Shown here one piece after another: positions 28,138 to 41,554 of a stretch of 64,000 bases of DNA. The notes below the pieces were generated by a model. It saw nothing but the letters and a program-made list of their open reading frames with translations. It ran no database searches and was not told the DNA's origin. The number at the start of each line of letters is the position of its first letter. Position 1 is the stretch's first letter. This DNA comes from Cyanobium sp. FGCU52 (GTDB lineage: Bacteria; Cyanobacteriota; Cyanobacteriia; PCC-6307; Cyanobiaceae): positions 1 to 64,000 of the forward strand of contig JANWUS010000018.1 in NCBI GenBank assembly GCA_024958715.1, given 5' to 3'. The position numbers were made by a program, and so were the translations under genes.

Positions 28138-28203
28138 CGGCAGGTCAGCAGCGGGGCGCCTGTCGGGCCGGTTGATAACTTGGCCCGATTGCGCAGCATT
28201 CCG

Positions 28204-29367
28204 GTGAACATCCAGCTCGGTCGCAACCGCGTCGTCCGCCGCGCCTACGGCATCGACGAGATCGCCCTGGTGCCCGGCGGTCGCACGGTGGACCCGGCGG
28301 TCACCGACAGCAGCTGGACCCTGGCGGGCATCACCCGGGTGATCCCGATCATCGCCAGCGCCATGGATGGTGTGGTGGATGTGGCGATGTGTGCCGAGCT
28401 CACCCGGCTGGGCGCTCTCGGAGTGCTGAACCTCGAGGGCGTGCAGTGCCGCTACGACGACCCGAACCCCGTGCTCGATCGGATCGCGGCGGTGGGCAGG
28501 GAGGAGTTCGTGCCGCTGATGCAGGAGCTCTACAGCCAGCCGGTGCGCGAAGACCTGATCCGCCGCCGCATCGCCGAGATCAAGGAGAAGGGCGGGATCG
28601 CCGCGGTGAGCGCCACCCCGGTGGCGGCCCTGCGGTTCGGGAAGGCCATCGCCGAGGCCGGCGCCGACCTGTTCTTCGTCCAGGCCACCGTGGTGAGCAC
28701 GCAGCACATCGGCCCTGAGGGGCAGGAAACGCTCGACCTCGAGGCGCTCTGCCGCGACATGGGGGTGCCCGTGGTGATCGGTAACTGCGTCACCTACGAG
28801 GTGGCCCTCCAGTTGATGCGTGCCGGCGCCGCCGGCGTGATGGTGGGCATCGGCCCGGGTGCCGCCTGCACCTCGCGGGGGGTGCTGGGCATCGGCATCC
28901 CCCAGGCCACCTCCGTGGCCGACTGCGCCGCCGCGCGCGACGACCACTTCGCCGAGACCGGCTTGTATGTGCCGATCGTGGCCGACGGCGGCATCGTCAC
29001 CGGCGGTGACATCTGCAAATGCCTGGCCTGCGGCGCCGATGCCGTGATGATCGGTTCGCCGATCGCCCGGGCCGCCGAAGCGCCCGGCCGCGGCTTCCAC
29101 TGGGGCATGGCCACCCCCAGCCCGGTGCTGCCCCGCGGCACCCGCATCAAGGTGGGCACCACCGGCAGCCTGGAGAAGATCCTGCGCGGGCCGGCCGGTC
29201 TCGACGACGGCACCCAGAACCTGCTGGGCTGCATCCGCACCTCGATGGGAACCCTCGGCGCCCGCACCCTCAAGGAGATGCAGCAGGTGGAGGTGGTGGT
29301 CGCCCCCTCGCTGCTCACCGAGGGCAAGGTGTACCAGAAGGCCCAGCAGCTGGGCATGGGCAAGTAA
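28204..29367 (+). CDS. guaB: IMP dehydrogenase/GMP reductase family protein without CBS domains (GuaB3-like)
   Basis: GTG start at 28204; NIQLGRNRVVRRAYGIDEIALVPG; IIASAMDGVVD; GIGPGAACTSRGVLGIGIPQ; about 388 aa with no CBS insert. Confidence 0.88.
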   Translation: MNIQLGRNRVVRRAYGIDEIALVPGGRTVDPAVTDSSWTLAGITRVIPIIASAMDGVVDVAMCAELTRLGALGVLNLEGVQCRYDDPNPVLDRIAAVGREEFVPLMQELYSQPVREDLIRRRIAEIKEKGGIAAVSATPVAALRFGKAIAEAGADLFFVQATVVSTQHIGPEGQETLDLEALCRDMGVPVVIGNCVTYEVALQLMRAGAAGVMVGIGPGAACTSRGVLGIGIPQATSVADCAAARDDHFAETGLYVPIVADGGIVTGGDICKCLACGADAVMIGSPIARAAEAPGRGFHWGMATPSPVLPRGTRIKVGTTGSLEKILRGPAGLDDGTQNLLGCIRTSMGTLGARTLKEMQQVEVVVAPSLLTEGKVYQKAQQLGMGK

Positions 29368-29417
29368 CCGGCAGGCCGCCCTGGGTACCGTCCCGGCACG
29401 GGGGCTAACCTCCGGAT

Positions 29418-29478
29418 GTGGGGGCTACGGCTCGCACACTCCTCACACCCACCGGCCCGGGGTTCCCGGGCCTTTCGT
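29418..29478 (+). ncRNA. yfr1: Yfr1 small regulatory RNA
   Basis: Between guaB and trxA; 5' stem-loop GTGGGGGC-TACG-GCTCGCAC, unpaired ACTCCTCACAC (29438-29448), then GGCCCGGG-GTT-CCCGGGCC-TTT terminator; -10-like TAACCT at 29406. Confidence 0.92.
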
Positions 29479-29591: not shown

Positions 29592-29915
29592 ATGTCCAGC
29601 GCCGCCGCTGTCACCGACGCCTCCTTCGAGCAAGACGTGCTCAAGAGCGATGTGCCCGTGCTGGTCGACTTCTGGGCTCCCTGGTGCGGTCCCTGCCGCA
29701 TGGTCGCTCCGATCGTCGACGAAATCGCCAAGGACTACGAAGGCAAGATCAAGGTGTTCAAGCTCAACACCGACGAGAACCCCAACGTTGCCAGTCAGTA
29801 CGGCATCCGCAGCATCCCCACCCTGATGATCTTCAAGGGTGGCCAGAAGGTTGACACCGTGGTCGGCGCCGTTCCCAAGACCACCCTCTCCGGCACCATC
29901 TCGAAATACCTCTGA
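29592..29915 (+). CDS. trxA: Thioredoxin
   Basis: [40 protein letters not shown]. Confidence 0.97.
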
Positions 29916-41110: not shown

Positions 41111-41554
41111 ATGGGCACCGGCAGTCCCGCCCTGGATCGGATCGTGGAGAGGCTCGGCAGCACCGCCGACCCCAAGCGCCGCTACGAGTACGTGCTGTGG
41201 CTGGCCAAGAAGCTGCCGCCGCTGCCGGAGGACTACCGCCAGGACGTGTTCAAGGTGCGGGGCTGCGTGTCGCAGGTGTATGTGGTGGGGCAGCTGCAGG
41301 AGGGCCGCCTCCACTGGCAGGGCGATTCGGATGCGGCGATCACCAAGGGCCTGCTGGCGCTGCTGATCGAGGGGCTTGAAGGCCTCACCCCCGCCCAGGT
41401 GGAAGCCCTCGATCCCGCCTTCCTGGCCGACACCGGCCTGCAGGCGAGCCTGACGCCCTCGCGCGCGAACGGCTTTCTGAACATCTTCCGCATGATGCAG
41501 GCCCAGGCCCGCTCCCTCGGGGCTACGGAGCCCGGGACGCCGGCGGATTTCTAG
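41111..41554 (+). CDS. sufE: SufE-family cysteine desulfuration protein
   Basis: RYEYVLWLAKKLPPLPEDYR; VRGCVSQVYV; SRANGFLNIFRMMQ. Confidence 0.93.
   Translation: MGTGSPALDRIVERLGSTADPKRRYEYVLWLAKKLPPLPEDYRQDVFKVRGCVSQVYVVGQLQEGRLHWQGDSDAAITKGLLALLIEGLEGLTPAQVEALDPAFLADTGLQASLTPSRANGFLNIFRMMQAQARSLGATEPGTPADF

Follow-up and report, generated by a model that had tools for sequence, protein, structure and literature searches.

For the small RNA Yfr1, Voss et al. (2007) reported the gene order guaB-yfr1-trxA in picocyanobacteria (PMC2190773). Its targets in Prochlorococcus MED4, as cited in PMC6778093, are two porin mRNAs that are recognized through base pairing by the core. In Nostoc, 11 targets have been confirmed, of which 10 are repressed, and most predicted sites lie in the translation-initiation region (PMC6974561). 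A second small RNA, Yfr2, was shown to interfere with Yfr1 and its targets in MED4 (PMC6778093). Other sRNAs also carry the Yfr1 motif, including Yfr10, Syr5 and Yfr104. In Yfr10 the core is placed in a loop atop a stem and the gene shows no synteny (PMC6778093).

We compared these systems to a locus within a 64,000-nucleotide stretch of Cyanobium sp. FGCU52 DNA, here called the window, for which Yfr1 had been predicted between guaB and trxA. The features of the locus are as follows.

28180..29367, + strand: guaB3-type IMP dehydrogenase-related gene, the upstream neighbour, starting at 28180 (TTG) or later (open reading frame; TIGR01304, 501 bits, cut-off 342.1)
29406..29411, + strand: yfr1 promoter, -10 box with the letters TAACCT (conserved block; TANNNT in all copies compared)
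29418..29474, + strand: yfr1 sRNA gene (Rfam RF01116, 60.1 bits)
29418..29437, + strand: 5' stem-loop capped by C(UACG)G, mismatched as G.G at 29421/29434 (fold, position comparison)
29438..29448, + strand: ultraconserved unpaired core ACUCCUCACAC (DNA ACTCCTCACAC), the putative antisense seed (sequence, ensemble; same motif in PMC2190773)
29454..29472, + strand: Rho-independent terminator hairpin with a stem of 8 GC pairs and a TTT tail at 29473-29475 (sequence, fold, terminator scan)
29592..29915, + strand: trxA, thioredoxin, the downstream neighbour (TIGR01068, 140.6 bits, cut-off 96.8)

The predicted identity was upheld by an Rfam search, in which Yfr1 scored well above its cut-off of 38 bits (E = 2.1e-9 in the 64-kb window), matched over the full model (positions 1-59 of 59) and was the sole family found in the whole window at the curated cut-offs. 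A search of the whole genome returned this single copy (E = 2.7e-11). The letters of the stem (GTG-G-GGGC-TACG-GCTC-G-CAC), of the core and of the GC terminator hairpin with its TTT are all located where the original prediction had placed them. The start of the predicted span of 29418-29478 coincides with the first position of the model match. The match stops at 29474 rather than 29478, and the sequence by itself does not tell how far past the T tract the RNA extends.

In the minimum free energy fold the core is left unpaired between two hairpins; this structure has an energy of -30.7 kcal/mol, accounts for 88% of the ensemble and differs from shuffles with z = -2.45. The unpaired stretch between the hairpins is 16 nt in length (29438-29453), within the 16-20 nt range of Yfr1, and contains the perfect core, each base of which is at least 92% unpaired in the predicted ensemble. 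The 3' hairpin was recovered by a terminator scan for which 0.0 hits are expected in shuffled sequences. Its U tract is short relative to those of relatives (TTTCGTC versus TTTTTG), while the terminator stem is stronger. The element resembles Yfr1 in its full-length model match, its two hairpins, its exact core, its T-tailed terminator, its -10 box and its gene order, and differs from it in letters only, namely the UACG loop, the G.G at stem position 4/17 and the shorter U tract, all of which fall within the variation of the family. Yfr10 shares the same 11-nt core; however, the core here lies unpaired between two hairpins and the gene occupies the Yfr1 locus with guaB-trxA synteny, which sets it apart from Yfr10. 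The element is the already known Yfr1 at its standard locus and extends the list of Yfr1 orthologues by one.

We considered whether the element might be no separate sRNA, being instead the 3' untranslated region of guaB3 with its terminator, or the leader of trxA. Both flanking genes were identified as predicted, upstream guaB and downstream trxA being the arrangement of most Yfr1 lineages. In favour of such a reading, the element begins 50 nt past the guaB3 stop codon and has a terminator at its end. Against it stands the promoter. The -10-like TAACCT, which had been proposed to set the start near 29418, is borne out by comparison of 51 copies, a non-random set of the 30 best-scoring family members and chosen relatives of this genus: a TANNNT precedes the predicted Yfr1 start in 51/51, with a gap of 6 nt in 47. 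Within this genus the box forms a conserved block of columns in a spacer that otherwise drifts, and the whole body of yfr1 is likewise conserved. No recognizable -35 box was found upstream of yfr1. Furthermore, orthologues appear on Northern blots as discrete RNAs of 54-69 nt, and some cyanobacteria possess yfr1 without guaB beside it (PMC2190773). We regard an untranslated region or leader as very improbable, and continue with a separate yfr1 gene.

The mismatch in stem 1 invites another reading, in which the G.G is functional: the weakened stem would let GUGGGGG swap onto the core (UCCUCAC) and hide it, forming a self-inhibiting switch. The original prediction had singled out the mismatch as unusual, a description that the comparison contradicts. 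Across the same selected set of 51 copies, position 4/17 holds C.A in 25, G.G in 16, G.A in 8 (including L049, from another genus, which has a shifted register), A.A in 1 and C-G in 1, so that the pair is non-standard in 50/51. The 16 copies from this genus, with the window included, have G.G in 14 and G.A in 2. The UNCG loop on stem 1 is also common (42/51 copies), and one internal loop at stem 1 was already allowed by Voss et al. (PMC2190773). These comparisons indicate that the mismatch and the UNCG cap are ordinary features, and the mismatch appears to need no special explanation. Predicted ensembles of three relatives with G.A (L044, L047 and L050) do show a partly paired core, in keeping with a switch. 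However, the core of the present RNA is predicted to be around 95% free with a swap probability of around 8%, and marine relatives with C.A show essentially no predicted swap. Covariation evidence for the swap is absent, and some pairing between a G-rich strand and the C-rich core next to it is to be expected by coincidence. From these models, we judge the pairing of the stem 1 strand with the core to be mostly chance complementarity, and a mismatch switch to be unlikely in the extreme.

Next, we looked at the target side of Yfr1, which proved the useful part of the analysis. The motif GTGTGAGG (GTGTGAGG) followed by ATG within 2-12 nt occurs at 12 places in the genome, compared to 3 for a reversed control. 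Two of these places, G000:C1:37551-37567 and 41184-41199, open long frames that begin MKIFQHLL... and MKLFQQLL..., while the frames opened by most of the remaining matches are short or implausible. Both long frames match SLH and OprB domains, the domain layout of som porins, and in both of these som-type genes the site GTGTGAGGA lies just 5' of the ATG at Shine-Dalgarno distance. The Yfr1 core is therefore complementary to translation-initiation sites of som porins, as it is in the described Yfr1. A stricter pattern, GTGTGAGGAn(2-12)ATGAA, was found in 37/42 genomes of the genus and in 0/42 with the reversed control. Some of the 9-nt match does not count as separate support, since a Shine-Dalgarno sequence such as GAGGA is expected before a gene in any case. 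Across the genus, 28/30 of the loci that were read begin the same type of porin, with differing bases on either side of the site. Many of the site matches in other genera of the family also begin som-like genes. Because GTGTGAGGA is kept throughout the genus, and at many porins throughout the family, while its surroundings drift, porin control has the best support among conserved tasks of Yfr1 in picocyanobacteria.

The genome also encodes a single Yfr2 (RF01701, also called Cyano-1), with a score of 45.5 bits at G000:C6:122756-122827 (L055). This is a different RNA and a partner in the same circuit, which holds the complement GUGUGAGGAGU rather than the core. Near its 5' end lies GTGTGAGGAGT, the exact 11-nt complement of the Yfr1 core. 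In cofolding of Yfr1 with Yfr2, the two 11-mers pair and both Yfr1 hairpins stay intact. By analogy with MED4, Yfr2 may act as an antagonist in this genome as well. A third exact ACTCCTCACAC in the genome, on the minus strand of G000:C45:1750-1760 (L054), has no Rfam match and looks either like a chance occurrence or like part of a reading frame at its end.

The gene, its structure, the promoter box, the target sites and the Yfr2 complementarity can be read directly in the DNA, and published work on relatives suggests how they would operate. We propose that the single yfr1 gene very probably gives rise to an antisense sRNA that blocks the translation of som-type outer-membrane porins and is titrated by Yfr2. 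The gene would be transcribed from its own sigma-70-type promoter to yield a trans-acting antisense sRNA of roughly 57-60 nt, in which the two hairpins would protect the ends and keep the ACUCCUCACAC core single-stranded. In the mRNAs of som-type (SLH/OprB) porins, the core would pair with the ribosome-binding-site sequence GUGUGAGGA and thereby block translation, and the 5' end of Yfr2, through GUGUGAGGAGU, would pair with the same core and titrate Yfr1. Transcription, repression and titration are each expected from the relatives in which they have been studied, and by this analogy we hold with high confidence that Yfr1 acts here as described.

Rfam searches across the order found Yfr1 in 274/300 genomes and no match in the other 26/300. 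Some of these 26 belong to the genera g3 and g7, which have AT-rich guaB-trxA spacers without Yfr1. Low-light Prochlorococcus is known to be without Yfr1 (PMC6778093); g3 and g7 resemble it, and we infer their naming from this resemblance.

A different pattern was observed in the genus g21, a sister of the present genus, in which yfr1 is absent from the guaB-trxA spacer in 8/8 of the genomes read and the two genes are around 50 bp apart. Every g21 genome nonetheless still contains the exact 11-mer. In six of the genomes, one occurrence belongs to an Rfam-called Yfr2 as its complement to the core, and in a seventh, G253, the Yfr2 sequence type is visible, though without an Rfam call. Another occurrence, ACTCCTCACAC, sits in a nearly invariant block of around 70-75 nt that is preceded by a -10-like CATAAT box and has a terminator. 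The block includes GTGACTCGGCACTCCTCACACGAGG, and its terminator is GGGAGCTTTT.

g21 genomes without yfr1: G115, G193, G196, G197, G200, G216, G229 and G253 (loci L068-L070 and L072-L076)
g21 candidate sRNA block: L085, L089, L090, L096, L097 and L098, around 1420-1610; also L207 and L208

The block has no Rfam match. Its 25-nt centre was found in 9/398 genomes of the family at up to 3 mismatches, and all 9 are g21. With so little variation in the block, the predicted structure of the candidate gains no support from covariation. In three g21 genomes that were read, som-like genes carry GTGTGAGGTTCTC with an ATG close behind. We lean towards the view that the circuit can persist when the RNA carrying the Yfr1 core is exchanged for another: g21 has lost yfr1, retains the exact complementary motif in Yfr2 and, in several genomes, the target site at som genes, and has its own candidate sRNA with a ACUCCUCACAC core. 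This candidate is possibly a Yfr10-like substitute, which would parallel SS120, where Yfr1 is missing and the same motif occurs in Yfr10 (PMC6778093). The literature searched holds no report of a Yfr1 substitute that could be tied to g21. With yfr1 lost and an apparent substitute present, the genus is a natural experiment on which functions depend on the core as opposed to the body of Yfr1.

Several single genomes show other arrangements. In the guaB-trxA spacer of G192 (L064/L080) the core ACTCCTCACAC is kept, the stems look degenerate and there is no Rfam match; Yfr2 was likewise not found in this genome by Rfam. The spacer of G202 (L065) contains a Yfr1-like element in which the otherwise invariant core is altered to ATTCCTCACAC. 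Finally, G025, G034, G035, G075, G165 and G217 each contain two matches to the Yfr1 model.
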